A stretch of DNA of 57,599 nucleotides, from NCBI GenBank assembly GCA_030016635.1, contig JASEJQ010000007.1, positions 1 through 57,599 of the forward strand, given 5' to 3'. This DNA is from Thermoanaerobacteraceae bacterium. GTDB lineage: Bacteria > Bacillota > Thermoanaerobacteria > Thermoanaerobacterales > UBA4877. The number at the start of each line of letters is the position of its first letter. Within the stretch, counting starts at the first letter, position 1. This document shows positions 124 through 54,112 of the stretch, piece by piece. The notes beneath the pieces are model-generated. The model worked only from the letters and a program-made list of their open reading frames with translations, was not told the origin of the DNA and searched no databases. A program made the translations under genes and the position numbers.

Positions 124-305
124 TCCGCGGTACCACCCTTATTAGCATATAGCTCACTTGTAAAATAACGGCCAGGCCGGACTGGACCTACTTAACTTTC
201 AGCCCAACCACTCCAGGGCGAACTTCGGAAGGCATCTTCATAGAGCCGTTCTCAGTCTACAGCGGCTCTTCCCTGTATGGATTACCTGCCTACTCTTCCC
301 CTTCA
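87..305 (-). promoter_or_regulatory. T-box riboswitch leader (gene off the left edge)
   Basis: Read on the minus strand, stem I starts near 305 with a GAAGAGTAGG segment, and a perfect T-box AGGGTGGTACCGCGG lies at 139-125. A terminator hairpin and T-run follow. T-box leaders sense uncharged tRNA and control aminoacyl-tRNA synthetase or amino-acid genes; the controlled gene lies left of base 1. The specifier codon is not resolved: the 3' strand of stem I reads CTCTATGAAGATGCC, so TAT, ATG and GAA are all possible. One copy of the iterated palindrome GGCCAGGCC lies inside the leader at 170-178 and may help form a small stem with the neighbouring GGTCCAG. Confidence 0.93.
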
Positions 306-375
306 TAGTGTTTAAATCAATATATCAATTGCCACATATTATACCATATTAAAGAGAAATATGAAATACCCAAAG

Positions 376-618
376 TTAAACAATCTCTTCCTCTATCATC
401 TTTTTTATCTCTTCCTTATTCAAAACCTTGCCTGCAGACTTTACCCTATCGTTTACAACAAAGCCCGGGGTAGTCATTATGTCATATTCCATGATCTTCT
501 TTATGTCTTTTACCTCAGTAACCACGGCATCTATGCCCATCTCCTTCAATGCCTCCTTGGCATTTCTTTCTAAGGCCTGGCATTTTGGACAACCTGTTCC
601 CAATATCTTTATCTCCAT
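376..618 (-). CDS. Thioredoxin-like small redox disulfide protein
   Basis: An 80-residue protein with the thioredoxin-fold start MEIKILGTGCPKC; the CxxC motif (GCPKC) is at residues 10-13 and the cis-Pro segment TTPGFVV is downstream. It belongs to the 'redox-active disulfide protein 2' (Thioredoxin_3) family, which typically pairs with YraQ/ArsP-type permeases. The start at 618 is chosen because GGAGG lies 7 bases upstream; the reading frame is open further to 636 but with no better site. It is the last gene of an arsR-permease-thioredoxin operon, 17 bases after the permease stop. It is probably a cytoplasmic dithiol donor for the transported compound. The family call is firm; the substrate is unknown. 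Confidence 0.85.
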   Translation of the reverse strand: MEIKILGTGCPKCQALERNAKEALKEMGIDAVVTEVKDIKKIMEYDIMTTPGFVVNDRVKSAGKVLNKEEIKKMIEEEIV

Positions 619-2180: not shown

Positions 2181-2206
2181 CAAAAAAAGGGCAACTCTAT
2201 GCCCTT
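2181..2206 (-). terminator. Intrinsic terminator after nrdG
   Basis: On the minus strand AAGGGCA (2206-2200) pairs with TGCCCTT (2193-2187) around a short loop, followed by a T-run (2186-2182). The 5' arm overlaps the last codons and the TAG stop of nrdG. Confidence 0.8.
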
Positions 2207-2886
2207 ATCAAAACCTCATCAAAATATTTGTCAACAGCATCCTTTATTTTCTCAAGATAACCGATATCACATGGGCTATTTCCACAGAAATCTTTATCAA
2301 GCACATCATCGGAATATTTATAGCCCTGAATCACATACCTGTGTGCACACTGCAGCCATTCCCCAATTTTCTCAAAGTCGTTGAGATCCAATATTTTTTC
2401 ATGGACAGTAGTCCTGAACTCATAGGACAACCTCGAGTTCATAATTATTTCTGTGCTCTCTTCAACTCTGGAAATATCCGATTCATCTTTTACAAATATA
2501 CCGTATTTATCAAGAGGAGCCTTTATATCCATGGCGATATAATCTAAGAGGTTCTCAGCTATAAGCTTTTTTAATATCCCCGGCCTGGCCCCGTTGGTAT
2601 CCAGCTTCACCTTAAATCCAATATCCCTAATCCTCTTTATATACTCCTCAAGCCCTATCCATAGGGTTGGTTCACCACCGGTGATGCACACCCCATCTAG
2701 GAGATTACCTCTTTTTACAAGATAATTTAATATCTCTTCTTCTGAGACATGCCCCTTATCGGTTGCCACTATGATAGAGCTGTTATGACAATAAGGACAG
2801 TGAAAATTACAGCCTGATACAAAGACTGTAGCAGCAACATTGCCAGGATAGTCAGCCACAGAGACCGGCATGAGGTCATAGATCAT
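2197..2886 (-). CDS. nrdG: Anaerobic ribonucleotide reductase activating protein
   Basis: A 229-residue radical-SAM enzyme that uses a 4Fe-4S cluster and S-adenosylmethionine to generate the glycyl radical on NrdD. The cluster motif CNFHCPYC is near residues 27-34, followed by the glycine-rich SAM-binding TGGEPTL (about 90-96). Its ATG overlaps the nrdD stop by 4 bases (ATGA), so translation is coupled. At 229 residues it is longer than E. coli NrdG (154) and closer to the pyruvate-formate-lyase-activase-like NrdG proteins of Clostridia. One copy of the iterated palindrome (2582-2590) encodes ARP in this gene. The gene ends in a terminator hairpin. Confidence 0.93.
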   Translation of the reverse strand: MIYDLMPVSVADYPGNVAATVFVSGCNFHCPYCHNSSIIVATDKGHVSEEEILNYLVKRGNLLDGVCITGGEPTLWIGLEEYIKRIRDIGFKVKLDTNGARPGILKKLIAENLLDYIAMDIKAPLDKYGIFVKDESDISRVEESTEIIMNSRLSYEFRTTVHEKILDLNDFEKIGEWLQCAHRYVIQGYKYSDDVLDKDFCGNSPCDIGYLEKIKDAVDKYFDEVLIRA

Positions 2887-7716: not shown

Positions 7717-8280
7717 TTACTTGCATTCAATTACTCTTTCCTCTGTGACAATATAGTCCACCCTTACATCATGATCATCCTCAGGTACTGGATGTATCTG
7801 GATTTCGAAGGCCAGGCCAATTTTAATCGCATTAATCCCCTTTAAAAATCTGTCATAATACCCACCACCATACCCTATTCGATAACCCCTCTCGTCAAAT
7901 ACTACACCAGGCACCAGTATCAGGTCAACATCATCGGGAGCTACTATTCTCTTATTATCATATATTGGCTCTCTTATCCCCTTAAATCCTACGGTAATAT
8001 CCCTGATTAAGTCCTTCATCTCAATCAGTATCAGTTCATAGGTATCTGGCTTTGTAAGGGGTAACACTATTTTTCTGTCTTCCTTTAAAGCTGCCTCTAT
8101 AATAGGGGCAGTCATAACCTCTTTTCTGTAATCCATATAAGCCATTATTATATTTGCCTGTGAATAAAAAGAAAGACTCTGGAGTCTTTCTGATATACTC
8201 AAACTCTTAAATTTAACATCATCCTCTGTAAGACTTTCCCTAAGGTTTAAAATATGTGATCTCAATTCTTTTTTATTCAT
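7717..8280 (-). CDS. 5-formyltetrahydrofolate cyclo-ligase
   Basis: A 187-residue enzyme that converts 5-formyl-THF to 5,10-methenyl-THF with ATP. The ATP/folate motif GYGGGYYDRFL is present near residue 140, as is the N-terminal KKELRSHIL..R basic segment. The start at 8280 is chosen because GGGGGA lies 7 bases upstream; the frame extends to 8298 without support. It returns side-product formyl-folate to the one-carbon pool, which fits the SHMT gene in the purine operon. It carries a copy of the iterated palindrome (7810-7818, encoding GLA). Confidence 0.93.
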   Translation of the reverse strand: MNKKELRSHILNLRESLTEDDVKFKSLSISERLQSLSFYSQANIIMAYMDYRKEVMTAPIIEAALKEDRKIVLPLTKPDTYELILIEMKDLIRDITVGFKGIREPIYDNKRIVAPDDVDLILVPGVVFDERGYRIGYGGGYYDRFLKGINAIKIGLAFEIQIHPVPEDDHDVRVDYIVTEERVIECK

Positions 8281-8309
8281 TTTGTTTCCCCCTGTCAAAT
8301 TTGAATGTC

Positions 8310-11312: not shown

Positions 11313-11972
11313 CTAATTTAAAATCTCAGCTGCCACCCTGGCCACCATTGTTCTGGAGAGAATTACCGGTTTACCTGTATATCTTCTTACGGCTTCTTTC
11401 ATCTTAATGCTATAGCCCATGCAGTCCATAACGATAAGGTCACATGCCTTAAGTTTTTCAGCAGCCTTGATTATTTCATTAAAATCTCTATATGGAGAAG
11501 CAGCAGAAACTAAAATATTGTTATATTTACCCCACTTATTTGCGGTCATATCTACCTGGTCCTCATCCGGTACCATGATGCCAGGGCAGATGTCTTGCCT
11601 AAAAGAACTGATTATTCCCTTAATAACATCGCTGGGTTTTATCAAAAGTACCTGAGAATTAAAATTGGGAAACTCGCCGGTACATAACAGTAATATGGCA
11701 TCCACACCAAGATGGTTTAACTCATCAATCTTTTGCTGCATAAGACCAAGTATCTTATTCTCTGAGAGCTTTACTTCCGTCCCGTCCTTTAGCCTTGAAA
11801 CCAGAATATTTACCTCATTTTCAGGAGAAAGTCCATTTATATCTTCCATGGCCAGGCCATCCAGTGCTCCTCTTTCAATAATCTCTACTTCTCCCAATAC
11901 CCTCATGATTTCAGGAATTATGTCCGTCCGCGGGGATTGCCCGATAGTCACTGTCCCTATCCTCTTATTCAT
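11313..11972 (-). CDS. AroM family protein
   Basis: A 219-residue protein with the AroM signature IGTVTIGQSPRTDI at the N terminus and the LLCTGEFP segment near residue 97. AroM proteins belong to the broad Asp/Glu racemase-like superfamily; their reaction is not established. The gene overlaps the upstream DUF1177 stop by 8 bases. AroM, DUF1177, DUF917, OPT and M29-like genes recur together in other genomes, suggesting one pathway. It contains a palindrome copy at 11850-11858 encoding GLA. Confidence 0.85.
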   Translation of the reverse strand: MNKRIGTVTIGQSPRTDIIPEIMRVLGEVEIIERGALDGLAMEDINGLSPENEVNILVSRLKDGTEVKLSENKILGLMQQKIDELNHLGVDAILLLCTGEFPNFNSQVLLIKPSDVIKGIISSFRQDICPGIMVPDEDQVDMTANKWGKYNNILVSAASPYRDFNEIIKAAEKLKACDLIVMDCMGYSIKMKEAVRRYTGKPVILSRTMVARVAAEILN

Positions 11973-14655: not shown

Positions 14656-16311
14656 CTATTTTGTCCGTTTAATAAACAAATTCATTGTACTCGTAAAGAA
14701 TGAATATAAAGTTGAACCTGCTATGAATCCAGCTGCTATTATATACATCGACGACTGAATTTTTTGACCATATAACTTCTGCAGAATAACTCTAACCACT
14801 ATGGCTGCCAGGACACCAAATCCGGCATTAGGATTTAAAATAAGTAATCCCGTAGCAAAAAGTATACCTATCTGCTTTTCAGCACCACCTATAAATTGTA
14901 TTGCAGCACCTACTATCGCCCATATCAAGAGGTTTTGAAGCACTCCCGGCTGGGCTCCTGCCTGAATAGTAGCAGCAAATACTCTATCCACTGGTGGGAA
15001 AAGGTCCTGACCAAAATAACTGGAATAGCTGAATATTACTACCACTATAGCCACAAGACCTCCCATAATTTCAGCAAAATACTGCTGTCTTCTACCAAAG
15101 AGCTCAATGTTGGCATCCTTTGATTTGCCTCTTAATAGCCACCCAGTCTTTAGGTCATAACCCATATCTGCAAATGCAGGTCCTGTACAGGCGGTATAAC
15201 CAACAAGAAGCCCCAGTGCCAGTGGTGGGAATCCCATCAACATGCCCAACACAAGGAATATCAGAGCAGTTGCAAATCCCGGAAACCATCCTGCATGCAT
15301 TGCCGAGATGCCTACCATCAACTCCGATACAAGTGCTGATAATGCTGCAAAGACAATCCACCATATTAGCATAGGCAGACTCATATCAGACATTATACCG
15401 CCAATAAGAGCTAATATAAGTCCACCGATGATATATAAAACAAATCCATTCCTTAGTGATTTGAGCATATGCTCAGGTGTCCTTGTCCTGGCATATCCCG
15501 ACTTTTCTTTTCCTGTTTGTGTTAGTCTTTTCCCACGAATGATCATTGTTATTTGTACCAGAGCTACTATGCCTGCACCAATCATAATACCATGAGGTAT
15601 ATAAAGCGCATTTATATCAATACCAAACAAGGGCTTGGAATAACCTCTGATGAGCAAACCAACCCCAAACATAGTTAGTGCCCATTCGTTTCCTATCCAT
15701 GCAACACCTATGACATCCATGGGAATTTTAAAGGCCTGGCCCACTGCACCTACAATACCACCAATTACTAAAAGAATGGCACGCCTGCCGCCTTCTGCTG
15801 CAGCAAGAATTGTTTCACTGGTAGCAATCCCGGGAGGCCAGGCCTCATCAGCAGGAAAAGCCGGCGTATCAAACATCCAGTACATCATTGTTATATCCAC
15901 TATCATTCCAAATGCCGCTCCAAATAACATAGGCATAAGGGATTCTTTATTTCCCATAAGCCATATGGTTCCCATTGCTAAAAGAAGGGCATTACCTGCA
16001 CCAAATGTTGCAGCAGAAACACTCGTCTGTATTAAATTTTGTCTATATATATTTTTAAACCCAGTAAATGCACCTCCTGGAATGAGACCTACAAGAACCG
16101 CTATAAGTGCACCAATAATAGAAGTATTGGCTGTTATTCCCAGCCTCACAATAAGTTCGAGGCCAATTATAGAACCCAAAGCTGAAACAATAAGAGTAAC
16201 AATTATGGTCAAAGGTTCAAAAAGCCTTGGCTGGGGCTCTTTTAAATATGTCTCAATCACTGGATCTAAAGCCCCTACATTGAAATCCCTCTTATTCTCC
16301 GGCAAATCCAT
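14656..16311 (-). CDS. OPT-family (oligopeptide) transporter
   Basis: A membrane protein of 551 residues with about 14 hydrophobic segments, including the OPT signature near the N terminus (IGALIAVLVGLIPGGAFTGF) and the repeated GxxPxG-type loops. OPT proteins import small peptides or metal chelates by proton symport. The frame is open to 16365, but ATG 16311 has AAAGGGGG 6 bases before it and avoids overlapping the upstream gene, so it is preferred. It contains two copies of the iterated palindrome (15733-15741, 15836-15844), in different frames. It is probably the importer for the substrate of this operon. Confidence 0.87.
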   Translation of the reverse strand: MDLPENKRDFNVGALDPVIETYLKEPQPRLFEPLTIIVTLIVSALGSIIGLELIVRLGITANTSIIGALIAVLVGLIPGGAFTGFKNIYRQNLIQTSVSAATFGAGNALLLAMGTIWLMGNKESLMPMLFGAAFGMIVDITMMYWMFDTPAFPADEAWPPGIATSETILAAAEGGRRAILLVIGGIVGAVGQAFKIPMDVIGVAWIGNEWALTMFGVGLLIRGYSKPLFGIDINALYIPHGIMIGAGIVALVQITMIIRGKRLTQTGKEKSGYARTRTPEHMLKSLRNGFVLYIIGGLILALIGGIMSDMSLPMLIWWIVFAALSALVSELMVGISAMHAGWFPGFATALIFLVLGMLMGFPPLALGLLVGYTACTGPAFADMGYDLKTGWLLRGKSKDANIELFGRRQQYFAEIMGGLVAIVVVIFSYSSYFGQDLFPPVDRVFAATIQAGAQPGVLQNLLIWAIVGAAIQFIGGAEKQIGILFATGLLILNPNAGFGVLAAIVVRVILQKLYGQKIQSSMYIIAAGFIAGSTLYSFFTSTMNLFIKRTK

Positions 16312-23532: not shown

Positions 23533-24773
23533 TATACAAGATTCTCCGTCCTCTCAGGCATTAGACCTGCGTAATTTTCTACATAAATAGACGGTATAGC
23601 AGCATACATTGCAGCCGCCTTTACAAGTTCGTCTTTCCATATGACCTCATTAGGTGCATGAGCCTGGTCCTCATGGCCTGGCCCAAACCCCACACAAGGT
23701 ATGCCAAACCTGCCCATGATGGATACCCCATTGGTAGAAAAGACCCACTTTGTGATCTCGGGCGCTTCATTGAAGAGCTCCCTATATGCGTGTATAAGGG
23801 TTTTACACCCAGGATGATCCTCCTCTATAAGCCATGTGGGGAAGTAGGCCTCTGTAGGATACTCAAGGCCGGTATACGACGGCCTGCTGTATCCATACAT
23901 CTCCACATCGGCATTGGCGGCCTTTACTGCAGGAAGGTTCCTTATCTGACTCAATGCCAGTTCTGCATCTTCTCCCGCAGTTAGCCTCCTATCTATGGAG
24001 ATCCAACAGCTATCAGCCACAGCACATCGCGATGGAGATGTGAAGAATATCTCTGATACAGTTAGACTGCCCTTCCCGAGAAAATCATGATTTTTCAAAT
24101 TCTCATGCAAAGCCCTCAGCTCTAGGAGTATAGGAGCTATCTTATATATGGCGTTATCTCCCCTTTCCGGTGCTGAGCCGTGGCAGCTTACCCCATGGGT
24201 GGTCACCTTTATCTCCATCCTGCCCCTCTGGCCTCTGCTTATCCTGCAAGCAGTAGGCTCAGTAAGTACAACAAATTCAGGTCTAATACAGTCTTCATTA
24301 ATGATATACTGCCAGCAAAGACCGTCGCAGTCTTCCTCCTGAACAGTGCCTGTAACCAGCAGGGTATAGTCGTCCTCTAAATTGAGGTCCTTTATTATTT
24401 TCCCGGCATATACCATGGAAGCCATACCTCCCTCTTGGTCACTTGCCCCCCTGCCGCCAATCACCTCATTGTCCTCATAGCCTTCGTACGGGTCAAACCT
24501 CCAAAGCGTTTTATCTCCAACACCCACTGTGTCTATATGGGCATCCATAGCTATGAGATGTTTTCCATGTCCGATATATCCCAGTATATTGCCCATTGGG
24601 TCTATCTCCACGCGGTCAAATCCCACTTTTTCCATTTCCTGCTTTATTCTTTTTATAACTGCCTCTTCCTGGCTGCTCTCACTGGGTATTGCTATCATGT
24701 CCCTCAAAAATCTTGAGATGTCCGGCCTGTATTTTTCAGCCTGTTCCTTTATCTCACTGAATTTTGCCTTCAT
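23532..24773 (-). CDS. ygeY: YgeY-family M20 hydrolase
   Basis: A 413-residue M20 metallohydrolase. Metal ligands are visible: His79 and Asp81 in MDAHIDTV, Asp112 in GASDQEGG, Glu146/147 in QEEDCDG and a late His in [11 protein letters not shown]. It matches the YgeY 'selenium metabolism-linked hydrolase' type found with YgeW, YgeX and HyuA; in purine-degrading clusters it is thought to remove a ureido or carbamoyl group from an opened ring product. Length is normal. The HIP-like palindrome at 23675 encodes GPG. The upstream gap of 46 bases to hyuA holds only a CTTCAAGGAGG-type binding site. Confidence 0.9.
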
Positions 24774-35686: not shown

Positions 35687-37971
35687 TTATTTTCCCCCTT
35701 CTTCTGCTTTAAAAGCTCATATATTCGCTCCCCTGTAGCCGGAATTTTGAATACCCTTATATCAGCAGCATCATATATTGCATTGGTCACAGCAGGAGCA
35801 GTAGGCACCATGCCTATCTCTCCTATCCCCTTTGCCCCAAACGGTCCTGTAGACTCATAGTTTGTCACAGGTATTGTCTCTATAGAACTGGGCATATCCT
35901 TTGAGGTAGGTATGATATACGTTGAAAAGTTTGGGGTCTTAACGACACCATTTTCTATAATGAGGTCTTCAGTAAGGGCATAACCTGTACCCATAACAAA
36001 GCCGCCCTCCGATTGTCCCTCTAATCCACCCTGATTTATGACAGTACCTGCGTCAACCACTACCGCACCATCTGTCACCCTGGCCTGGCCGGTCAATGTA
36101 TTGACCTCCACCGCAGCTATCTGACCGCAGCATGAGTATATATGATGGGGGAGTCCAAATGCGCCCTCAATGGCCTTATCCGCAGTTGGAAGGTCAAAGT
36201 GCCCCTCAGCGACAGGTAAGCCTCCCCTCTCTATTGCATAAGATGAAATTTCCTCATAAGATACCCTCTTATCTTTAGCTGTTTTTACATATGCACTGCC
36301 ATCATCTATCTCTATCTCGTCCGGGGATACACTTAACATGCCTGAGGCATATCCTTTTATCTTCTCATTCATCTCCTCCGCTGCTAAGAATATAGCCTTG
36401 CCGCCTACATAAGCCGCCCTGGATGCAGTGGTAGGACCAGCATCTGGTGCATTTCTCGTATCGCCAATCACAACCCTTATCCTCTCAATAGGAAACCTCA
36501 ATGCCTCTGCAGCCACCTGGGCATATACCGTCATTGCTCCCTGTCCTATCTCCACACATCCAACCCTTACAATGAAACCGCCATCAGGGTCCATCTCTAT
36601 GACAGCATCTCCGAAATCCGGCAACCCTACACCCAGTCCCATACCCTGCCAGGAAAGGGCCAGGCCGACCCCTCTCTTTATCCACGGCCTATTTTTATCC
36701 GTCCCTCTATACCTCTCCCTTTCCCTCCAGAGCCTGCTGCCCTCCATAGCATCCAATACAGCCTCTGACTCCACATCCGTAGTAATGTGATGCCCTATAG
36801 GGGCCACTTCTCCTTTTTTTAATATGTTCTTCCTCCTGAACTCTATAGGGTCAAGACCAAGTTTTTCAGCTATAATGTCCATCTGAGACTCCATGGCAAA
36901 TGTCACCTGTGGCACCCCAAAGCCCCTGAATGCTCCAGATATGCCATTATTTGTATAGACGCTGTACCCATCTATATGGACATGTGGAATCCTGTATAGC
37001 CCGCAGCTCGATTCCAGGGCAAGATTTAAGATGGGACCTCCCAGTGAGGCATAGGCACCTGTATCAGCATAGACCTTCACATCGTTGGCAACCAGAGTGC
37101 CGTCTCTTTTAACCCCCGTCCTGTAGATCATTATCATTGGATGCCTTTTCCAGTATGATATTATAGATTCTTCACGGGGCATTACCATCTTTACAGGTTT
37201 GCCCGTCTTTAGGGCTAAAAGTGCCATTATAGGCTGGATGGTAAGTTCATCCTTTCCTCCAAAGGCACCGCCCACCGGACTGGATACCACCCTTATCTTT
37301 TCTACAGGCATATTGAGGCAGCGAGAAAGCTGGAGCTGATCTCTATGTGGATAATGGGAGCCGGCATAGACAGTAAGTGTGCCATCCTCCTCTATAAGGG
37401 CAATGCCATCCTCTGTCTCTAAAAAGGCATGCTCCTGTCTGCTGGCATAATAGGTATTCTCTATGATGAGGTCTGCCTCATCAAATCCCTTATCGATATC
37501 TCCCTTTCTTATTTCAGTGTGAAGCAGAATATTTCCGCTCTCATGCACTTTGGGTGAGTCAGGTTCAATGGCCCTGATGGGGTCATCCACCACAGGAAGC
37601 ACCTCATACTCCACTTCTATGAGCAATGCAGCCTCCTCTGCAATCTCTTTTGATACAGCTGCTACCGCTGCCACTGCATCACCAGCATACCGCACCTTGT
37701 CTTTGCAGAGTACAGGCTGGTCCTGTATGGCTATGCCGAAGCCGTTAAGGCCAGGCACGTCCTCCCATGTAACCACTGCCTCAACCCCGGGCAGGGCCTT
37801 CGCTTTAGATGTATCAATGCTCTTTATAAGGGCATGTGGATGTATTGAACGCAGCACCTTGCCCCAAAGCATACCATCAAAGGAGAGGTCGCTCATGTAT
37901 TTTGTAGTTCCTGTCACCTTTTCATATGCATCAACTCTGGGTATATCCTTGCCAACATATTTGAGGTCCAC
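35683..37971 (-). CDS. xdhD: XdhD-like molybdenum hydroxylase subunit
   Basis: A 762-residue molybdopterin subunit. The N-terminal hammerhead domain starts KDIPRVDAYEKVTGTTKYMSD; molybdopterin loops include GGAFGGKDEL and GAFRGFGVPQ; the base catalyst region reads GPFGAKGIGEIG. E. coli XdhD is 956 residues because a 2Fe-2S domain is fused at its N terminus; that domain is absent here. No 2Fe-2S gene is adjacent, so the orphan XdhC at 19442-19909 is the likely partner. It overlaps the FAD gene stop/start by one base. It carries two palindromes (GQA and GLA). Confidence 0.9.
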   Translation of the reverse strand: MDLKYVGKDIPRVDAYEKVTGTTKYMSDLSFDGMLWGKVLRSIHPHALIKSIDTSKAKALPGVEAVVTWEDVPGLNGFGIAIQDQPVLCKDKVRYAGDAVAAVAAVSKEIAEEAALLIEVEYEVLPVVDDPIRAIEPDSPKVHESGNILLHTEIRKGDIDKGFDEADLIIENTYYASRQEHAFLETEDGIALIEEDGTLTVYAGSHYPHRDQLQLSRCLNMPVEKIRVVSSPVGGAFGGKDELTIQPIMALLALKTGKPVKMVMPREESIISYWKRHPMIMIYRTGVKRDGTLVANDVKVYADTGAYASLGGPILNLALESSCGLYRIPHVHIDGYSVYTNNGISGAFRGFGVPQVTFAMESQMDIIAEKLGLDPIEFRRKNILKKGEVAPIGHHITTDVESEAVLDAMEGSRLWRERERYRGTDKNRPWIKRGVGLALSWQGMGLGVGLPDFGDAVIEMDPDGGFIVRVGCVEIGQGAMTVYAQVAAEALRFPIERIRVVIGDTRNAPDAGPTTASRAAYVGGKAIFLAAEEMNEKIKGYASGMLSVSPDEIEIDDGSAYVKTAKDKRVSYEEISSYAIERGGLPVAEGHFDLPTADKAIEGAFGLPHHIYSCCGQIAAVEVNTLTGQARVTDGAVVVDAGTVINQGGLEGQSEGGFVMGTGYALTEDLIIENGVVKTPNFSTYIIPTSKDMPSSIETIPVTNYESTGPFGAKGIGEIGMVPTAPAVTNAIYDAADIRVFKIPATGERIYELLKQKKGENK

Positions 37972-38846: not shown

Positions 38847-40085
38847 TTATTCTTCCTCATACAGTGGAAAATCCTTCAAAATTTTTGAGACCCTATCCTT
38901 TACGTCATCTACACTGTAGCTCCCCTTAATAACCGATGCGATTATATCTGCAATCTCATCCATCTCATGAATGCCAAGGCCCCTGGTCGTTGCGGCAGGC
39001 GTGCCGATACGTATGCCGCTTGTCACATTGGGCCCCTTTGGGTCATCGGGTATGGTGTTTTTATTTACCGTTATATTCATCTCCTCTAATTTTTTCTCAA
39101 TATCCTTTCCGCTTACATCATATTTTCTGAGGTCTACCAACATAAGATGATTGTCTGTACCGCCAGACACCAGATCAATATCCCTCTTTAAAAGTCCATC
39201 AGCTAATGCCTTTGCATTTTCTACTATCCTCCTTTGATAGTCTTTGAAGTCATCAGACATGGCCTCTTTAAAGCACACGGCTTTGGCTGCAATTATATGC
39301 ATCAGGGGGCCTCCCTGCGTACCGGGGAATATAGCCTTGTCTATGGCTTTACCCAGTTCCTCTTTGCAGAGGATTGCGCCACCCCGTGGCCCTCTTAATG
39401 TTTTATGGGTTGTGGTGGTCACTACGTGGGCATAGGGTACAGGGCTCATATGATAACCTGCAGCTACAAGACCTGCAATATGGGCCATATCTACCATGAG
39501 ATAGGCATTTACGCTATCGGCAATTTCTCTAAATTTCTTGAAATCAATTTCCCTAGGATATGCACTGGCCCCTGCTACAATTAGCTTCGGCCTGGCCTCT
39601 TTTGCAATCCTCTCCACCTCGTCATAGTCCATCCTTCCAGTGGTGGGGTCTACGCCATAGGACACAAAATTAAAATACTTACCCGATATATTCACAGGGC
39701 TGCCATGGGTCAGGTGACCGCCATGGGAAAGGTTCATCCCCAGAACAGTATCCCCAGGATTTAAAAGGGCAAAATACACAGCGGTGTTAGCCTGAGCCCC
39801 TGAATGGGGTTGGACATTCGCATATTCAGCATTAAAAAGACTCTTAAGCCTCTCCCTTGCCAGCTCCTCTACCTCATCCACAAACTGACATCCGCCGTAA
39901 TATCTCTTGCCCGGGTAACCCTCAGCATACTTGTTTGTAAGCACAGTGCCCATGGCTGCCATAACAGCAGGACTTACAAAGTTTTCAGAAGCAATCAGCT
40001 CAATTGTTTTTCTCTGTCTGCCCAGCTCTCTTCTTATACTGGCAGCAACCTCAGGGTCAACCATATCAATTGTCTTAAGGTCCAT
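38847..40085 (-). CDS. glyA: Serine hydroxymethyltransferase
   Basis: A 412-residue PLP enzyme that interconverts glycine plus methylene-THF and serine. The PLP lysine is Lys228 in [25 protein letters not shown] and HSGAQAN are also present. Length is standard. Its place inside a purine operon is unusual outside purinolytic Clostridia, where purine-derived glycine and one-carbon units are channelled to serine and pyruvate. The gap upstream is 52 bases. One palindrome (39589) encodes ARP. Confidence 0.96.
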
Positions 40086-43039: not shown

Positions 43040-44814
43040 TCAATTGAATACTCCCTTATCTTCCTATAAAGAGTTGCTATGCCAATACCCAATTCATCAG
43101 CAGCCTTCACCTTCCCCTTATAGCTCATACCATATCTCTTTAATGCCTTACATATCAAATGCTTTTCTGCATTCCTCATGTCCATGGTGTTGTCACCAAT
43201 AGCTGAAGACCCTGCAAGGCTTGACTTAAATTTTTCAGGCAGGCTGGATGTATGGATTACAGGGGATTCTTCCATGTTGATGGCATATTCTATGGTGTTT
43301 TCCAGCTCTCTTACATTCCCTGGCCAAGAATAACCTTCTAATAATTCTAACGCCTCGGGTATTATTCCTGCAATATTTTTACTCAATAGTTTCGAGTATT
43401 TCTTGATGAAATAATCAATGAGCGGTTCTAAGTCCTCCAACCTTTCACGAAGCGGCGGTATATTTAACGGGATTACATTGAGACGATAATAAAGGTCCTC
43501 ACGGAACTCGCCCTTCTTGACCTTTTCCTCTATGTTGTTATTGGTTGCAGCTATGACCCTGACGTCTATTTTTCTGGTGCGGCTTGAACCAAGCCTCTCT
43601 ATCTCCTTATCCTGCAAAACCCTTAAAAGTTTCACCTGAAGATGTATAGGCATATCACCTATCTCATCGAGGAAGATAGTACCTCCATCTGCCATTTCAA
43701 ATTTACCGGGTTTTCCACCCTTCTTAGCACCAGTAAAGGCCCCCTCTTCGTAACCGAAGAGTTCGCTCTCCAACAGGTTATCAGGTATTGCCCCGCAGTT
43801 CACTGTAATAAATGGTTTATCCTTTCTTTCACTGGAATAATGTATTGCCCTGGCAAGAATTTCCTTGCCGGTACCACTTTCTCCTGTTATGAGTACTGTA
43901 GACCTGCTTTTGGCCACCCTGTAAACGCGCTCTTTCAGGTCCATAATGGGCTTGCTCACCCCTACAAAGTTATCCAAGCCAATCTTATCATGCGGCTGCG
44001 TCATATCATAAAAGAGCTGATGAAACTTAGCCATGGGTCTTAATATGGCCATAGCACCAAAGACCTTCTTCTCAAAGGTCATGGGGTATGCAGAGACAAG
44101 AAACGGCTTTTCTTCATCATTTAGATTTATAAAAAGCTCTCTTTCCTCTATCTCTCTCTGAGTTGAAATCACGTCCTGCAAAAAGGCCAGGCCAGGCCAA
44201 TCTGCAATTGTCGAAGTCTGCCAGCTTTCCATATTCAAAAGCTTCCTGGCAGAGGCATTGATATGCAAAACTTTTCCATCCCTCTCAATGGCTATGACAG
44301 GGTCTGGCATCTTGTCAATAAGGAGCATTATCTCCTGAGTAAAAAGTCTCTCTTCCTCCCTTAATTTTGCCTCTATAGAGCTGCTCGCCAGCAATCTGGC
44401 CATTTTTTCAATAAAAATCTTATGGGCAGGCAATCTCTCTATCAAATGCTGTTTCTGTTCATCTGTAAAGCATACAAGCCCTATAACTCCAAATACCTTC
44501 CCATTATCAATAATTGGTGCTGAAACCTCTGCCTTTTCCTCACATGCATCATGTTTATAGCATCTTTTGCATATTTCTTCCTCTCCTGCTACCTTCACTG
44601 CTATACCCCTGCCTGTCTTTATGACCTCGCTGTATACAACCCCATCCTCATTGAGGTACATGCCCACCCTGTCCCTATATTTTCCTGTGCCTGCAATCCT
44701 CTTGAGCCTGCTGTCCACAATCTCCACATCCAGATTCAGTTCCGAGGCTATGGCCTCACTGACCTGTGAACAAATATCCTGTATTTTTTCCAGTTCAGAT
44801 AATTCCTGCACCAT
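43027..44814 (-). CDS. Sigma-54 dependent activator (YgeV-like)
   Basis: A 595-residue enhancer-binding protein. N-terminal GAF-like sensor domain (about 15-140) with a cysteine cluster C82-x2-C85-x5-C91, a PAS domain (about 160-260), AAA+ domain with GESGTGKE (311-318), the sigma-54-contacting GAFTGA (358-363) and FLDEIGD (381-387), then a Fis-type HTH. All activation motifs are intact. The start is 44814 or 44817, just after the modC stop, so it is translated with modABC. E. coli ygeV, next to ygeW, is the counterpart. It probably binds the TTTATCA palindromes. The ligand could be a purine, molybdate or redox signal. Two overlapping GGCCWGGCC copies encode WPGLA. Confidence 0.93.
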
Positions 44815-44823
44815 CATCACCAC

Positions 44824-45495: not shown

Positions 45496-46163
45496 TATTG
45501 ATTCTCCTTTTTTAAGACAAATCTATCGGACAAAAACTCAATGGATAATGAGGCTGCAAGAGCAATAGCCACAATGATAATGCCATAAAGCCAGGCCATT
45601 TCTATATCTCCCTGTTCCACATAAAAATACAGCGCAAGGGGCAATGTCTGCGTCCTCCCGGGGATGTTTCCCGCCACCATCAATGTGGCTCCAAATTCGC
45701 CCAGTGCCCTGGAAAAACCAAGGATGACACCGGAAAGAAATGACGGCCAGGCCAGAGGCAGCATCACCCTGAAGAAAATCTTAAAGCTCCCGGCGCCCAG
45801 AACCTTTGCAGCCTTTATAAAGCTCGCATCCACCGATTTAAATCCAGCATCTATTGACCTGTATACCAACGGAAATGACACAACCGATGATGCAATCACA
45901 GCCCCAAGTACAGTAAAGACCACCCTTATACCTATGGAATCCAAGAATGAACCTATAGGGCTCCTAAGCCCAAATAACATGAGGATGATAAAGCCGACAA
46001 ATGTAGGAGGAAGTACCATGGGAAAAGTTGCCATAACATCTATGACCCGCCTTACACCCCTGCCCTTCATACTTATATATACGCATGCCAGTGATAAAAA
46101 TATATTGATGAATGTGGAAATAAGTGCTACCTTAAACGATACATATACAGGAGATAGGTCCAT
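45495..46163 (-). CDS. modB: Molybdate ABC transporter permease
   Basis: A 222-residue permease with five or six membrane helices and the EAA loop FGATLMVAGNIPGRTQTLPLALY, typical of ModB. It lies 3 bases after modA. A palindrome copy (45745) encodes AWP, and a near-copy lies at 45589. No irregularities. Confidence 0.93.
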   Translation of the reverse strand: MDLSPVYVSFKVALISTFINIFLSLACVYISMKGRGVRRVIDVMATFPMVLPPTFVGFIILMLFGLRSPIGSFLDSIGIRVVFTVLGAVIASSVVSFPLVYRSIDAGFKSVDASFIKAAKVLGAGSFKIFFRVMLPLAWPSFLSGVILGFSRALGEFGATLMVAGNIPGRTQTLPLALYFYVEQGDIEMAWLYGIIIVAIALAASLSIEFLSDRFVLKKENQ

Positions 46164-46166: not shown

Positions 46167-46916
46167 TCACACCTCAAACCCAAACTTTTTAAATATAACT
46201 TTTGCCTTTTCTGACTTTAAGAAACTGATAAATGCCTCCGCATCCTTGACATGCCTGCTGTCTTTTACAATAATCGCATAATAGGCAATCTCCTCGTGGG
46301 ACCCAGCAGGGGCACTGTCAGATATTTCTACATCTTTTGATATTCCCGCATCTGTTTTATATACTACCCCGGCTCCGGCACTTCCACTCTCCACATAGGC
46401 CAGAACGCTCCTTACATCCTTTCCCATGACCAACCTCGGCTCTACCTCATCCCAAATACCCAGGGAAGTAAATACCTCCTTGGCGTACCTTCCTGCCGGT
46501 ACTATCTCCGGTTCACCTATGGCTATATATTCAAGGTCTCCTGGAAGCTCATTAAACTTAATCTTCTTGCCGCCTGAAGGTACAATTAATACAAGCTCAT
46601 TACCTGCTATCTTAGTTATGCTGTCAGGCCTGGCCAGCCCAGCTTCATTTAATGAGTCTATCTCTTTACGACCAGCAGACACAAACACATCTATTGGAGC
46701 ACCCTCCTTTATCTGATTCATAATAGTCCCCGATGAGGCAAAGTTTACAGTAACAGCTATATTCGAGTCCTCTTCATTAAATGATGTTATGAGGGCCTCC
46801 ATAACATCTCTGAGGCTGGCAGCACAGGATACATTTATCTCCTCTTTTTCAGGTGAGCATCCCGATATCAAAGACAGCATAAGAAATGGCAAAATGATGA
46901 GAAGAATTTTCCTCAT
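46167..46916 (-). CDS. modA: Molybdate-binding lipoprotein
   Basis: A 249-residue periplasmic-type binding protein anchored by lipid: the signal peptide MRKILLIILPFLMLSLISGC ends in the lipobox LISGC. ModA features include SCAASLRDVMEAL, FASSGTIMNQI, GAPIDVFVSAG and GKDVRSVLAYVESGSAGAGVVY. The start at 46916 has GGAGGG 8 bases upstream; a longer frame to 46988 only adds repeat sequence. It begins the modABC-activator operon. The palindrome at 46627 encodes ARP. Confidence 0.95.
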   Translation of the reverse strand: MRKILLIILPFLMLSLISGCSPEKEEINVSCAASLRDVMEALITSFNEEDSNIAVTVNFASSGTIMNQIKEGAPIDVFVSAGRKEIDSLNEAGLARPDSITKIAGNELVLIVPSGGKKIKFNELPGDLEYIAIGEPEIVPAGRYAKEVFTSLGIWDEVEPRLVMGKDVRSVLAYVESGSAGAGVVYKTDAGISKDVEISDSAPAGSHEEIAYYAIIVKDSRHVKDAEAFISFLKSEKAKVIFKKFGFEV

Positions 46917-46960
46917 AGAATAACCCTCCAGGTGAAACCTTGAACCAGGTTTATAATATT

Positions 46961-49062: not shown

Positions 49063-51819
49063 TTAATTGCAGATATTTTTTAACCCATTATATCTGCAAA
49101 ACTGACAGTCCCCTTTTACTGGGACAAACCCATCAATCCCATCGCTGATGAGTTTGGTTAATGAATTGAGAAATTCATCTGTCTCAGTAAGGACACTGCT
49201 GTTTACTTCTATCTTATAAAACATGCCATCGCCGAGACTAAAAATTATACATTCCTTTGGCATATAACCCAAACGGGATAGGACCAGGCCATATATTTTC
49301 ACCTGCATCATATAAGCCTTTATCAGCTTTTCATCCATTACCCTGTTGGTCTTAAAATCAATGACAGTGGCATCCTTACCATTAAACATCAGCCTGTCTA
49401 TCCTACCCCTCAATGTAAGTCGTTCATTTACATTAAAAGTAAATGGATATTCTGAAATTCCGGCAGTATATCCGCTTTTCAGATAATTCTCAAAACATTT
49501 ATACGCATAATCTTTTTCGTCTCCATTCAGGTCAATCTCTTTCAGTACATCGTATATAATATGCTGATCATTTCCATCGTAAAGTTCAATGGCCCTGTGG
49601 ACTGCGTCCCCTCTGATGGCCCCAACGCCACCAGCCCCGGATAAGAAGTGTTCCTCAGACAGTCCGGCTATGTTGTTCAGATAGAACCTCCTGGGGCATT
49701 CCAGGAATTCAGACACAGCAGTAACATTGAGTATATATCTTCCTGTCAAACTCAGGACGGGATTTGTAGATACCTTGAACCCTGTCCGGCCGCATGCCAT
49801 GATAATAGTAGGTCCATCCAGAACAACTTTAGTTCCCTCACCAATATGGTCCTTTAGCTTACTATAAAAACTGCCGTTCCTATTATGACCGTCGCTAACT
49901 ATAATAAGATGGTCTTTGGCTCTGGTAAGTGCCACATAGAGCACCCTATCTTCCTCTTCTTCCTCATCCTTCTTTATCTTTTCTTTAAGTCCTTCATAAT
50001 TACTGCTCATATCCTTTATGCCTATACCCATATCAGGATGAAACAAAATGCTGCTGGATGTACTCTTTGTACTGCTTGTGGTATCTGCTAAGAAAACCAC
50101 AGGAAATTCCAGACCCTTTGCTGCATGGACAGTCAGTATCTTAACAGCATCCTCATCCTCGCTAACTAAAAGAACTCCTTCCTGCTCATCATATTTTTCA
50201 ATGGCTTTGATAAACTCAGCAGGGGTAAAGCCCTTTGAATCGTAGTATCTACAAACATCTATGAACCGTAGGAGGCCATCCAAACATTCTTCACCCTTAT
50301 ATGCTGCCTTAGAAAAGAGGTCACACATGAGGACGGCACGCATGGCCAGGCCCTCAATGCTGTACTCATCGTTCCTCTCTATTATCTCCCGCAACCATTC
50401 CGGCATCAGGTCCTCTATCTTTTTCCCTTCACTGACATAATGATATATCTCGCTCTCCTCCATTCCTGAGAGGTTCTTTAATATGCCATAAAGATATATG
50501 GCCTCTCCATTGGTTAGATACCTTATGAGGTTTAATATGTCCTTCACCTCATTGTAATCATAGAGGCTGCCCCTGTCTAAAACATGATAAGGTATACCAC
50601 TCCTTTTAAAGCTGTCTATATAATACTGGAGATTTGACTTCTTCCTGAAAAGTACTGCTATGTCCTTAAATTCTGGTGACCTGAAACAATTGTTTGTACT
50701 ATCATAAATAGTTGCACCGCTACTAAAAAGGAATTTTATTACCTTTGCTGCTATGCCATCCGCCTCTTCCCTCTTTCTCACATCAGCATCAGGGTTATCA
50801 TTTACAGATATATGAGCTACAGAGCTATCAATGTCAGACCCCACGGTGCAGATAAGGGGGTGATACCCATCCATATTTGAAAAGACTTCGTTTACCAGAG
50901 AAAGTATTCCGGCATTGCTCCTGTGGTTTTCCGTAAGCTTCAGTGTCAAAGCTCTGCTGTCTGCCGAACGCTTGTCAATGAGGCTTGGCCTGGACCCACG
51001 GAACCCGTAAATGGCCTGTTCTTTGTCGCCAACCACAAAGAGATTGGCGTTCCTTGAGAGCATCTCCACAATGCTGTCCTGGATATAGTTAACATCCTGA
51101 TACTCGTCAACCATTATATATTTAAAGTTATAGGCATCAAGTATTTCACTATGTTCTTTGAGGAGCTTCCACGCCATATAGAGTATATCGTCAAAGTCTG
51201 CCAACGAGTTTTCCTCTTTATATACCCTATATCTGATATCCAGTTCCTTCAAAAAATCTATGATAGAGGCTTCATACTCATTATTTGATTTTATCCCTTC
51301 CATGTCATAACCCATATCCCTGATTCTCTTGTATGTACCCTGAAGCGCACCTAAAAGGCTATTAAGCCCCAGATCCTTTGCAAGTCCATATATCCTGTTA
51401 TCTATTAGCCTTTCTCTGATCAGCTCGCTGGCTATGCCTTCAATAATATAAGCTGCCTCGCCCTCACTTATTACATACATATAAGGATCTATACCTGCAT
51501 CCACAGGATTCTCCCTAATAAGCCTCAAGCAGAATGAATGTATAGTGCCTATATACCCATACTCCATATGCTTCCGAATGTACTCTGTACTGTCATCGTT
51601 TCTTTTTGACAGTTCCCTTCTTATCCTTTCTTTTATCTCTGCACTGGCCTTTTCGGTAAAGGTTATGGCTACTATGCTCCTTATGTCTTCACCCATATCA
51701 AATAGTACATGCATTATCCTGTTAATCAAAAGGGATGTCTTTCCTGTGCCCGCTCCTGCCAGGACTGCTACATTCTTATCTATGGTCTCCGCAGCCCGTC
51801 TCCTGATATCCTCATCCAT
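49063..51819 (-). CDS. addA: AddA-like helicase-nuclease (UvrD/RecB type)
   Basis: A 918-residue superfamily 1 helicase with a C-terminal RecB nuclease. Walker A GAGTGKT is at 22-28, Walker B is MVDEYQDVNY, motif VI is VALTRAKDHLIIV, and the nuclease core reads GRIDRL then VIDFKTNR, then QVKIYGL. The last residues contain CQFC and a further Cys. The start at 51819 directly follows the addB stop and is preceded by AGGGGCGGTGA; a longer frame to 51879 would overlap addB. It is shorter than Bacillus AddA (about 1230). It repairs double-strand breaks with its partner. Palindrome 50344 encodes GLA. Confidence 0.88.
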   Translation of the reverse strand: MDEDIRRRAAETIDKNVAVLAGAGTGKTSLLINRIMHVLFDMGEDIRSIVAITFTEKASAEIKERIRRELSKRNDDSTEYIRKHMEYGYIGTIHSFCLRLIRENPVDAGIDPYMYVISEGEAAYIIEGIASELIRERLIDNRIYGLAKDLGLNSLLGALQGTYKRIRDMGYDMEGIKSNNEYEASIIDFLKELDIRYRVYKEENSLADFDDILYMAWKLLKEHSEILDAYNFKYIMVDEYQDVNYIQDSIVEMLSRNANLFVVGDKEQAIYGFRGSRPSLIDKRSADSRALTLKLTENHRSNAGILSLVNEVFSNMDGYHPLICTVGSDIDSSVAHISVNDNPDADVRKREEADGIAAKVIKFLFSSGATIYDSTNNCFRSPEFKDIAVLFRKKSNLQYYIDSFKRSGIPYHVLDRGSLYDYNEVKDILNLIRYLTNGEAIYLYGILKNLSGMEESEIYHYVSEGKKIEDLMPEWLREIIERNDEYSIEGLAMRAVLMCDLFSKAAYKGEECLDGLLRFIDVCRYYDSKGFTPAEFIKAIEKYDEQEGVLLVSEDEDAVKILTVHAAKGLEFPVVFLADTTSSTKSTSSSILFHPDMGIGIKDMSSNYEGLKEKIKKDEEEEEDRVLYVALTRAKDHLIIVSDGHNRNGSFYSKLKDHIGEGTKVVLDGPTIIMACGRTGFKVSTNPVLSLTGRYILNVTAVSEFLECPRRFYLNNIAGLSEEHFLSGAGGVGAIRGDAVHRAIELYDGNDQHIIYDVLKEIDLNGDEKDYAYKCFENYLKSGYTAGISEYPFTFNVNERLTLRGRIDRLMFNGKDATVIDFKTNRVMDEKLIKAYMMQVKIYGLVLSRLGYMPKECIIFSLGDGMFYKIEVNSSVLTETDEFLNSLTKLISDGIDGFVPVKGDCQFCRYNGLKNICN

Positions 51820-51820
51820 A

Positions 51821-54112
51821 TCATTCACCGCCCCTGTATTTGCATATATCATCATATTCGCAGTATGCACCATATCCATCAGTCTTGGGACATTTCTTCG
51901 GACTCAATGGAAATTCGCCGTTTCTTATCCCATCAACGTAACCCAAGATGATGTCTTTGATTTCATCGAAAAATATTCCCCATTCATCTCCGGTCAAAAG
52001 TCCCTTCTTCCTGCTGCTAAAGCCAAAAGTTCCCATGTCTTTTAAGATTATCGGCTCGCGCTTTTTTTGTTCTATTGATAAATACATCCCCCCTGATGTT
52101 GCGATAAATTGATTTTCAATTGCCATTATATACACAGGAAGCTGTATGTCCAACCCACCTGCTGCCTCATCTATAGTTGGAACATACCCTTTTTTATAGT
52201 CTATAATGAGATAACCTCTATCTGTTTTATCCAACCTGTCTATCCTGCCGCTTATCGTTATCCCATCCAGGTTCAGTTCAATGGGATACTCGACCTCTAC
52301 CAATGTTCTACTGTAATTTTTATCTATCTCTGAATTTAAAAAATCCCTAAGTTTATCACCCATTATATCCTTATATAGTCTTCTCTCAGCTTCACTTTCA
52401 AAGAACCCAGCTGTATGGCTGTCGTAAACCTCAGATAGGATTTTTTCTATCTCCTTTAAATATTCCTCCCTATGATCCCCTTCAATGCCGTCCGGGAGTT
52501 TTAAATAAAATTGTTTCAACACCTCATGATATATGCTGCCGATTGTAATGCTGTCAAAGGCATTTTCCCTCTCCGGCACAAGTTTTAGCACATTCTTCAG
52601 GTAATACCTGTAGGGACACTGCCCATATTCATTGAGCTCAGACACAGAAAAGGAGGTCCTGGATATGCCATCTATCTTTAAACCATTTTGGTCTTTTAAT
52701 TCAACAGGATTTACTGGAAAAACCTCTCTTAGTTCAAGGGTCTGTTTTATATCCGGTTGGTTCAAAAACCACGAGGGCAAGGTGGGTGAATCACCTGGCC
52801 CTAGTATTGGATAGGATGCAATGATTTCATCTGAAGTGGATTTCAAAAAATTCCAGGATAGGTTTTCCCTTTCTATAAGGCTTTCTATGGTGTCCAGAGT
52901 ATATCCCAGGCTGTTTATTTGAGCCCTGTCTACGTCTTTTATCAGCCAGTCCCCGATAAATGTCCTCGGATAGCTCCCCTCATATGCCCCCACAAGATAA
53001 ACCCTTTTAAAGTTCAGACCGCGAATATCTAAGGGTGAATATATCCTCACCCCACCTGACCCCATCCCTTCCCTATATGTGATGCCCTTAAGAATAGAAG
53101 TGATGTGTTTTTTAAATCCCTCTTGAGAAATAAGTTTTTTATCAGGCATCCTTTCTTCCACAAACAGTATTCCATCCAAGACACTTAGAAAGGTTTTCCT
53201 GGCCTCTAAGTCCCTGCGCAGATTCTTGAGGTGTTTATGGTTTTGGGCCAGGCCCTCCGCACTTGAAATAGACGACTTTAAACGCTCAACCCATTCCACT
53301 ATGGTGTCATCTCCACCATTAATACCCTTTATGGTATTCTTTACGAAGGGGTTTGACAGGATAGGTGCCTGCAGCTCAAAGCCTACAGGTATGCCCCTGG
53401 TCTTAAAGGAATCATAAACATACCTCTTGTAACTATCATCCCTTGTAACAACTGCAACATCTCCATATGAAAAGCCATTGGATATGTCATTTATAATGTT
53501 GTCGGCCAGTCCGTAGCACTCCGCATATATATCTCTTGCCTTTACCACTTTGACCTTTGCCCTGTCGTTCAGCACAGTGTTTATTATCCCGGCTTTATCC
53601 CCAAGTAAATTGATAATTTCCCTCTGCACTGATGTAAAGTAGTAAAAATCCCGAAAAATAATTTTGTCAAATCCTTCTATGTATTTATTTGTCCTTATAT
53701 TGCCCCTGCATATTATAAACCTATCTTCCTTATCATAAAAACCCTGGTCGGATAAAAAATTCTGATATTGATGAAATATATTTACGAGGTCTGGCCAGGC
53801 CGGGCTATACATGGGTAATTGACAAATTTTATCCATAGTGATTCCCTGAAGTTTTAGCTCACCTATCACTCTGGACACATCGATAACATACCCCCAACGT
53901 ATTACTTTAAAATAGTTAAGTCCGGCAGATTCCATAATCCTATAGAGTATAAATGTCTTTTCATTGTTATCAATCTCTCTCTTACCCTTTAATGCCTTAT
54001 ATATACACTTCCAGACAAAGCCATCAAATGTTTCAAATCTATCTTCGGCCGGATTGCAGCCCACCATATACCTATCCATGAGTTCCTTTGTTGGTAAGAC
54101 ATAAAGATTCAT
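51821..54112 (-). CDS. addB: AddB-like nuclease subunit, compact
   Basis: A 763-residue partner of the preceding helicase. The C-terminal PD-(D/E)xK nuclease reads GRIDRLDKTDRGYLIIDYKKG then QLPVYIMAI. Cysteines in YGQCPYRYY and the C-terminal C-x8-C-x5-C (CPKTDGYGAYCEYDDIC) fit the AddB iron-sulfur staple. Unlike Bacillus AddB (about 1160 residues), the N terminus has no Walker A, so the helicase-like half is reduced. It starts an addB-addA operon, TAA-to-ATG nearly adjacent. Two palindromes encode GLA (53246) and AWP (53793). Confidence 0.82.
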   Translation of the reverse strand: MNLYVLPTKELMDRYMVGCNPAEDRFETFDGFVWKCIYKALKGKREIDNNEKTFILYRIMESAGLNYFKVIRWGYVIDVSRVIGELKLQGITMDKICQLPMYSPAWPDLVNIFHQYQNFLSDQGFYDKEDRFIICRGNIRTNKYIEGFDKIIFRDFYYFTSVQREIINLLGDKAGIINTVLNDRAKVKVVKARDIYAECYGLADNIINDISNGFSYGDVAVVTRDDSYKRYVYDSFKTRGIPVGFELQAPILSNPFVKNTIKGINGGDDTIVEWVERLKSSISSAEGLAQNHKHLKNLRRDLEARKTFLSVLDGILFVEERMPDKKLISQEGFKKHITSILKGITYREGMGSGGVRIYSPLDIRGLNFKRVYLVGAYEGSYPRTFIGDWLIKDVDRAQINSLGYTLDTIESLIERENLSWNFLKSTSDEIIASYPILGPGDSPTLPSWFLNQPDIKQTLELREVFPVNPVELKDQNGLKIDGISRTSFSVSELNEYGQCPYRYYLKNVLKLVPERENAFDSITIGSIYHEVLKQFYLKLPDGIEGDHREEYLKEIEKILSEVYDSHTAGFFESEAERRLYKDIMGDKLRDFLNSEIDKNYSRTLVEVEYPIELNLDGITISGRIDRLDKTDRGYLIIDYKKGYVPTIDEAAGGLDIQLPVYIMAIENQFIATSGGMYLSIEQKKREPIILKDMGTFGFSSRKKGLLTGDEWGIFFDEIKDIILGYVDGIRNGEFPLSPKKCPKTDGYGAYCEYDDICKYRGGE

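Follow-up and report, generated by a model that had tools for sequence, protein, structure and literature searches.

A 57,599 nt stretch (positions 1–57,599) of contig JASEJQ010000007.1 of a Thermoanaerobacteraceae bacterium (assembly GCA_030016635.1), referred to in full as the window, carries genes for, among others, a radical SAM protein, an OPT transporter, an adenine deaminase, a sigma-54 activator and AddA- and AddB-like proteins, and through it runs a 9 bp palindrome, GGCCWGGCC (W, A or T). A pattern scan of the whole window found 23 exact copies (Table 1), which are the same 23 that had been listed by hand in a sequence-only reading of this DNA, and no further ones. With strands pooled, no other 9-mer in the window is as frequent, the runner-up occurring 10 times, and its expected number ranges from 0.13 (base composition) to 0.94 (order-2 Markov model; orders 0–3 were tried); the earlier estimate had been well under one. 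Open reading frames (ORFs) hold 22 of the 23 copies, in all three frames and in peptides GLA, GQA, xARP, xAWP, GPGH and WPGL, and the other lies in a T-box leader, as had been stated. Some details of that reading needed adjustment. Ten GLA tripeptides are indeed written GGCCTGGCC, out of a total of 14 in window ORFs rather than the 12 that had been noticed; the GLA of addA is spelt GGACTTGCA as reported, at 51379 instead of about 51376; and of four near-copies, those at 12662, 37749 and 45589 were correctly placed, while the fourth, listed at 573, starts one base later, at 574 (GGCCTGGCA).

Table 1. Exact copies of GGCCWGGCC in the window, with the features containing them; (-), minus strand.
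Sequence	Position	Feature	Peptide	Remarks
GGCCAGGCC	170..178	T-box leader (RF00230, 108-315, minus strand)		small three-pair hairpin of the model, loop lower-case in the consensus
GGCCTGGCC	2582..2590	radical SAM ORF 2197-2886(-)	GARP	
GGCCAGGCC	7810..7818	ORF 7717-8298(-)	GLA	
GGCCAGGCC	11850..11858	AroM ORF 11313-11972(-)	GLA	
GGCCTGGCC	15733..15741	OPT transporter ORF 14656-16365(-)	GQA	
GGCCAGGCC	15836..15844	OPT transporter ORF 14656-16365(-)	EAWP	
GGCCAGGCC	20241..20249	ORF 19914-21158(-)	GLA	
GGCCAGGCC	21790..21798	pyridine nucleotide-disulphide oxidoreductase ORF 21142-22398(-)	GLA	
GGCCAGGCC	22024..22032	pyridine nucleotide-disulphide oxidoreductase ORF 21142-22398(-)	GLA	
GGCCTGGCC	23675..23683	ORF 23532-24773(-)	GPGH	
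GGCCTGGCC	26707..26715	adenine deaminase ORF 26202-27926(-)	LARP	
GGCCAGGCC	27414..27422	adenine deaminase ORF 26202-27926(-)	GLA	
GGCCTGGCC	35564..35572	ORF 34325-35686(-)	GQA	
GGCCTGGCC	36082..36090	molybdopterin-binding (xanthine dehydrogenase-like) ORF 35683-37971(-)	GQA	
GGCCAGGCC	36658..36666	molybdopterin-binding (xanthine dehydrogenase-like) ORF 35683-37971(-)	GLA	
GGCCTGGCC	39589..39597	ORF 38847-40085(-)	EARP	
GGCCAGGCC	44185..44193	sigma-54 activator ORF 43027-44823(-)	GLA	overlaps the 44190 site (5-base step)
GGCCAGGCC	44190..44198	sigma-54 activator ORF 43027-44823(-)	WPGL	
GGCCAGGCC	45745..45753	ORF 45495-46163(-)	LAWP	
GGCCTGGCC	46627..46635	solute-binding protein ORF 46167-46988(-)	LARP	
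GGCCAGGCC	50344..50352	AddA-like ORF 49063-51879(-)	GLA	
GGCCAGGCC	53246..53254	AddB-like ORF 51821-54112(-)	GLA	
GGCCAGGCC	53793..53801	AddB-like ORF 51821-54112(-)	PAWP	

Abundance and taxonomic distribution

The proposal that the window samples a genome-wide element akin to a highly iterated palindrome (HIP) is borne out by the complete set of contigs. The genome of the window (G000; 2,351,550 bases, 114 contigs) contains 759 copies of GGCCWGGCC, about 323 per Mb, against a single occurrence of the pattern read backwards, which served as the control. In the only other genome of the family examined (G001), which belongs to a different genus, there are 664 copies against a control of 5. The other 22 of 24 genomes of the order carry 0–12 copies, as do the other 35 of 37 in the class, and in a phylum sample of 398 genomes, from which G001 was absent, G000 has the top count. 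Other high counts in that sample mostly have high controls (541 vs. 460 and 539 vs. 457; 529–538 vs. 124–160 in f17). Where the ratio of count to control was raised, the codon shuffle described below was applied to samples of three genomes, all more G+C-rich (G250, G411 and G300), and their ORF sites number 10 vs. 8.8, 5 vs. 3.0 and 3 vs. 3.0, observed and shuffled. Further raised ratios, for example 538/124 (G394, of f17), 118/6 (G361, of f99), 116/11 (G248) and 40/0 (G109), may reflect a weaker excess. GGCCWGGCC is abundant, sharply defined and, within the class, restricted to this family.

No palindrome of similar strength turned up in samples of G003, G005 and G015, where the best reached 3.6-fold. 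Two other repeated words were seen in passing. The word GACCGGTC is about 11-fold above expectation in 155 kb of G250 (L252-L262; a count of 18 on both strands, representing 9 sites), and is perhaps another iterated palindrome or a repeat, and AAATCGGACCA is present in 118 copies at G001:C12:60001-80000 (L075), probably as a large CRISPR array.

An exact nine-base unit

Word statistics come from a 655 kb sample of G000, with 229 sites, and a 792 kb sample of G001, with 196. An order-3 Markov model predicts 7.5 and 5.3 sites, respectively, so that enrichment is about 31- and 37-fold. Among the 16 all-G+C palindromes of the form xxxxWxxxx, the fifteen other than GGCCWGGCC occur only 0–6 times each in these samples. 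In smaller samples of the two genomes, paired GGCC words at spacings of 0–11 were over-represented at a spacing of one base only (130 vs. 4.5 and 108 vs. 3.2), and flanking columns out to 14 bases gave no signal above about 0.1 bit. One-base variants stay near background, at 184 vs. 135.5 expected in G000 (1.36-fold) and 136 vs. 107.6 in G001 (1.26-fold). Since the variants are so few, the pairing is confined to one spacing and the flanks are free of signal, the unit is exactly nine bases long. Within GLA and GQA tripeptides that are not motif-coded, synonymous one-base variants do exceed the prediction from codon usage (21, 7, 11 and 7 vs. 6.5, 2.9, 6.2 and 3.8); one-base intermediates exist, but they are few beside 280 in-frame sites.

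Codon usage and effect on proteins

The contention that codon preference does not explain the motif was examined with a shuffle that keeps each protein and its codons but not codon pairs. In 30 shuffles of the 655 kb sample of G000, ORFs contained 16.4 ± 3.8 sites, against 219 observed (one site counted in two ORFs), and the contention stands. The corresponding figures are 188 vs. 11.0 for the G001 sample and 3 vs. 1.5 for G003. By frame, the 219 sites of G000 divide into 155, 33 and 31, and 155 encode GLA or GQA; in the same sample, 95 of 143 GLA tripeptides are written GGCCTGGCC and 60 of 69 GQA tripeptides GGCCAGGCC. Only 11 of the 229 sites are not wholly within an ORF, which is fewer than an even spread would give at an ORF coverage of 86%.

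The motif also leaves a mark on protein composition. Tripeptides with at least 25 copies were ranked by composition-normalised enrichment in the family relative to three outgroup samples (with a floor of 0.3 for the outgroup ratios), and GQA came first (5.1-fold). GLA, ARP, RPG, AWP and WPG are raised as well, although WPG only a little in G000, and the values for AWP and WPG rest on few copies. The tripeptides GEA, GVA, GIA and ALG are not raised, and GKA is slightly up in G000 only. GGCCWGGCC shapes protein sequence, with a cost in amino acids.

Conservation between the two genera

Reciprocal best matches between the partial samples of G000 and G001 gave 153 protein pairs, of which 131 with less than 90% DNA identity (mean 70%) were used and 22 dropped. 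Shared sites in these pairs number 29, of which 20 are in frame and 9 fall in the two remaining frames; a further 17 occur only in G000 and 18 only in G001. A comparison of relatives at synonymous positions had been suggested as a check, and sites are conserved there: of the 21 in-frame sites of G000 whose peptide is unchanged in G001, 20 are identical to the letter, against 377 of 1898 control triplets (20%) that encode the same peptide in both genera and end every codon in G or C. Multiplying codon retention rates predicts an identity of 5.5% for GLA and 11.7% for GQA. Seen from the peptides, 23 identical GLA or GQA tripeptides have the site in both genera in 20 cases, in one genus in 1 and in neither in 2. 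A separate test at the nucleotide level, which counted each shared site once from either genome, found 26 of 38 to be exact, compared with 15.8% for comparable 9-mers. These sites are held at the level of DNA.

Unshared sites behave differently. The peptide is retained at only 3 of 35, two of which are out of frame, and the remainder accompany changed amino acids. Flank identity is 62% around unshared sites vs. 78% around shared ones, and the unshared 9-mers themselves are 57% identical, about as divergent as their flanks, with no sign of multi-base (block) conversion tracts.

Spacing, placement and local G+C

Even spacing was not seen in the samples of either genome: gaps between sites fit random placement, with coefficients of variation of 1.01 (G000) and 0.97 (G001), and counts in 5 kb bins are slightly over-dispersed (variance/mean 1.09 and 1.38). 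Because gaps are random and unshared 9-mers are as divergent as their flanks, sites behave independently of one another. Density climbs with local G+C. In G000 there are no sites in 20 two-kb bins below 35% G+C and about 750 per Mb above 46%, and in G001 none below 32%, 104 per Mb at 32–35% and about 820 per Mb above 46%. When genes are compared within G+C groups, site density is broadly similar whether or not they have a match in the outgroup samples, a criterion that is a weak proxy for mobile DNA.

One stretch of G001 stands apart (L061; G001:C1:1-20000). Its 20 kb are 33.5% G+C, have no sites and carry genes for a PolC-type DNA polymerase III alpha subunit, initiation factor IF-2 and DXP reductoisomerase; the earliest site on this contig, among those listed, is at 40380. 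The stretch may be an imported core region or an assembly mix-up.

Methyltransferases and recently shared tracts

The palindrome nests CCWGG (Dcm-type) between two GGCC (HaeIII-type) sites, as the sequence-only reading pointed out, naming a methylation- or repair-linked motif among the possible roles. Outside the 9-mer the two words are ordinary, with observed/expected ratios (O/E, order-1) for GGCC and CCWGG of 0.84 and 1.17 in G000, and 0.75 and 1.31 in the motif-free G003, and a family search detected no C5-cytosine methyltransferase (PF00145) in G000 or G001. For both reasons the Dcm/HaeIII reading fails, and the near-background level of variants speaks against it too.

Two full-length methyltransferases of PF01555 with a TSPPY motif, which we take to denote the N4-cytosine type, are common to both genomes; among four relatives in the order, two have only partial matches above the cut-off and two have none above it. 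Relatives of the first enzyme are spread over many phyla, and the 1.14 Mb of DNA surrounding the best 80 of 348 has 8 sites vs. 4 controls, in a scan that may have left out the window's own or very near records. In G000 the first enzyme is preceded by an ORF (L020:92-973) without a family match whose product looks endonuclease-like; about 809 of the bases of this ORF are absent in G001 (L021), where the methyltransferase lacks this neighbour. Directly after the second enzyme in G001 is a MjaI-type endonuclease (PF09568), presumably specific for CTAG, while the G000 enzyme is encoded by a shorter ORF (348 vs. 446 aa) at a contig end. In the samples of both genomes CTAG and GATC are strongly avoided, with order-1 O/E of 0.05 and 0.28, respectively, in G000 and 0.09 and 0.37 in G001. 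Both PF01555 enzymes are doubtful candidates for the reader of the site, one standing beside the MjaI-like endonuclease and the other being widespread, with relatives embedded in motif-free DNA. Other methyltransferases include a PF02384 pair common to G000 and G001, in type I-like clusters as judged by ORF order and lengths, and one PF02086 (D12-class) enzyme in each genome.

Between the genera, the two PF01555 genes have a DNA identity of about 99%, compared with 76% for the median orthologue, and therefore look recently shared. Tracts at L208, L210 and L060 (G000:C80, C91 and C95) are likewise 97–99.8% identical to G001:C6 at about 37–42 kb and 63–76 kb, methyltransferase included, and may result from recent exchange or from assembly mixing.

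Interpretation

We regard GGCCWGGCC as the HIP of this family, that is, a chromosome-wide set of exact 9 bp duplex sites, each read whole by a sequence-specific protein and each protected singly against loss, an explanation to which we give slightly better than even chances. Because the site is sharp over nine bases and palindromic around a central W, the reader would probably be a homodimer and would recognise the entire 9-mer as duplex. Loss of a site would be disfavoured one at a time, via selection or a selection-like repair bias, and new sites would come about through ordinary base changes wherever the local G+C and a stretch of protein that tolerates change leave the sequence near the motif. 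A function needing one site per fixed distance is argued against by the independence of neighbours and the dependence of density on local G+C, both of which suit upkeep of each site on its own. We think that a role in chromosome maintenance (repair, modification or nucleoid organisation) is more likely than one in DNA uptake. The fuller claim, of a HIP that originated independently outside the cyanobacteria, in a family that is probably clostridia-like to judge by its T-box and AddAB-type genes, and is read as a whole 9 bp unit by a dedicated protein, is a tentative one that falls short of an even chance.

Several observations weigh against this explanation. No recognising protein was found among the candidates examined. 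Sites gained independently in the two genera would match as well, because most GLA and GQA tripeptides of these genomes are sites. The family is represented by two genomes, and the orthologue test by 131 pairs from partial samples. Sites do turn over, as seen from the excess of in-frame synonymous one-base variants (46 vs. about 19 expected in non-motif GLA and GQA of both genomes) and the 3 of 35 unshared sites that keep their peptide. Density tracks local G+C, as mutational or repair bias would also produce, and site-free stretches of 12–20 kb occur, one of them with core genes, so that dense spacing is not required.

A competing but less likely account is the biased-repair drive of Elhai, in which sites marked by a methyltransferase are favoured during mismatch repair and so build up with no function in themselves. 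Elhai (PMC4390886) links the over-represented palindromes of cyanobacteria to putative methyltransferases able to read them. Two full-length PF01555 enzymes are present in both motif-rich genomes and in none of the four order relatives tested, which have partial matches or none above the cut-off, and random, site-by-site spacing suits a local process, even if it does not fit saturation at a fixed distance. What makes this account doubtful is the nature of the available enzymes: neither genome has a detectable C5 methyltransferase, one PF01555 enzyme adjoins a MjaI-like endonuclease in genomes that strongly avoid CTAG, and the DNA around relatives of the other is nearly free of sites. Moreover, the PF01555 genes appear recently shared while the sites appear old, and GGCC and CCWGG alone are ordinary.

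The uptake sequences of Neisseria and Haemophilus are short words present in hundreds of copies or more. GGCCWGGCC could likewise be a self-recognition signal for natural transformation, accumulating by recombination because DNA bearing it is taken up preferentially. It resembles such sequences in being short and present in hundreds of copies, ComEC (PF03772) is encoded in G000 and G001, and some site-free stretches look foreign. However, ComEC is also present in G003 and G005, which lack the excess (four of four genomes tested). Uptake signals are not known to be palindromic and the spacing of uptake signal sequences is described as even, whereas GGCCWGGCC is a randomly placed palindrome. Nor are recently shared tracts, a part of which was chosen for their methyltransferase genes, richer in sites (7 in 21.5 kb, or 325 per Mb, vs. 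44 in 126 kb, or 349 per Mb), and we consider an uptake role unlikely.

A Chi-like site for an AddAB nuclease is very improbable. Chi sites are over-represented short words (PMC4390886), and AddA- and AddB-like genes lie in the window itself, but a palindrome carries no orientation, and G001, with its 664 sites, has no detectable homologue of the window AddB, while G002, with 8 sites, has one (37% identity); G003 also gave no match. AddAB was ruled out as the reader through G001, the remaining escape being an AddB in the unassembled part of that genome (98% complete). The AddA-like (938 aa) and AddB-like (763 aa) proteins of the window (49063-54112) are unusually short. Finally, codon or amino-acid preference or G+C composition, to which the many GLA and GQA sites and the climb of density with G+C might point, has a negligible chance of explaining a motif that exceeds its codon shuffle 219 to 16, occurs in all frames and a T-box, has fifteen all-G+C counterparts at 0–6 copies, and stays near shuffled levels in ORFs of the more G+C-rich G250, G411 and G300 samples.

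Relation to known iterated sequences

The sequence-only reading had drawn a parallel with HIP1 (GCGATCGC) of cyanobacteria, and in kind this holds: both are short, G+C-rich palindromes with extreme genome-wide over-representation. In the wide sense of Elhai, who treats HIP1 together with alternate HIPs (PMC4390886), a genome-wide palindrome far above composition and codon expectation is a HIP, and this is what was found. The sequences differ, GGCCWGGCC being odd in length, centred on W and hosted outside the cyanobacteria. The same paper gives HIP1 densities of about 500–2500 per Mb, above the value of about 323 per Mb here, and describes one-base variants as common in many cyanobacteria, where ours are near background. 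It associates each highly over-represented sequence with a putative methyltransferase capable of reading it and proposes a repair model, although some HIP1-rich genomes lack an enzyme for CGATCG; for GGCCWGGCC, the PF01555, PF02384 and PF02086 enzymes are candidates at most. Another report (PMC6560206) describes an N4-cytosine methyltransferase for GGCC in Synechocystis. The alternate HIPs (GGCGCC, GCSGC, RCCGGY, GGGATCCC and TCGATCGA) offer a likeness, in that HIP1 is replaced in a lineage by a palindrome peculiar to it, but in PMC4390886 GGCGCC, GCSGC and RCCGGY are each marked in one genome only and paired with a putative methyltransferase able to read them, whereas GGCCWGGCC is common to two genera.

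The anaerobic thermophile Caldithrix abyssi has an over-represented palindrome, aAACCGTTgaAACGGTTt, that is similarly devoid of conservation outside the palindrome; according to its description (PMC5317091), it resembles repetitive extragenic palindromic (REP) sequences, with 38 exact core copies, 13 of them overlapping predicted genes. GGCCWGGCC, by comparison, has 759 copies, nearly all in ORFs as judged from the G000 sample. In the open-access literature we found no description of GGCCWGGCC or of a HIP in Clostridia, in agreement with the earlier statement that none was known. Judging by their titles, the papers that matched the letters of the motif dealt mostly with primers, constructs and human or mouse material; among the matches listed, none had the degenerate form.

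Significance

What discussion of HIP function we came across concerns cyanobacteria, in which HIP1 is common and linked to methyltransferases. A sharper HIP in one family, with motif-free sister families and no C5 methyltransferase detected, offers a clean comparison, and the gene for the reader would be expected among those present in both HIP genera and missing from the other 35 genomes in the class. If the fuller, tentative claim is correct, GGCCWGGCC and its reader would form a chromosomal system of a new kind, independent of C5 methylation, and the motif would have the strength to lock synonymous codons in both genera and to put GQA, GLA, ARP and RPG into proteins. A DNA motif that shapes proteins genome-wide matters when conservation and tripeptide content are read in such genomes.

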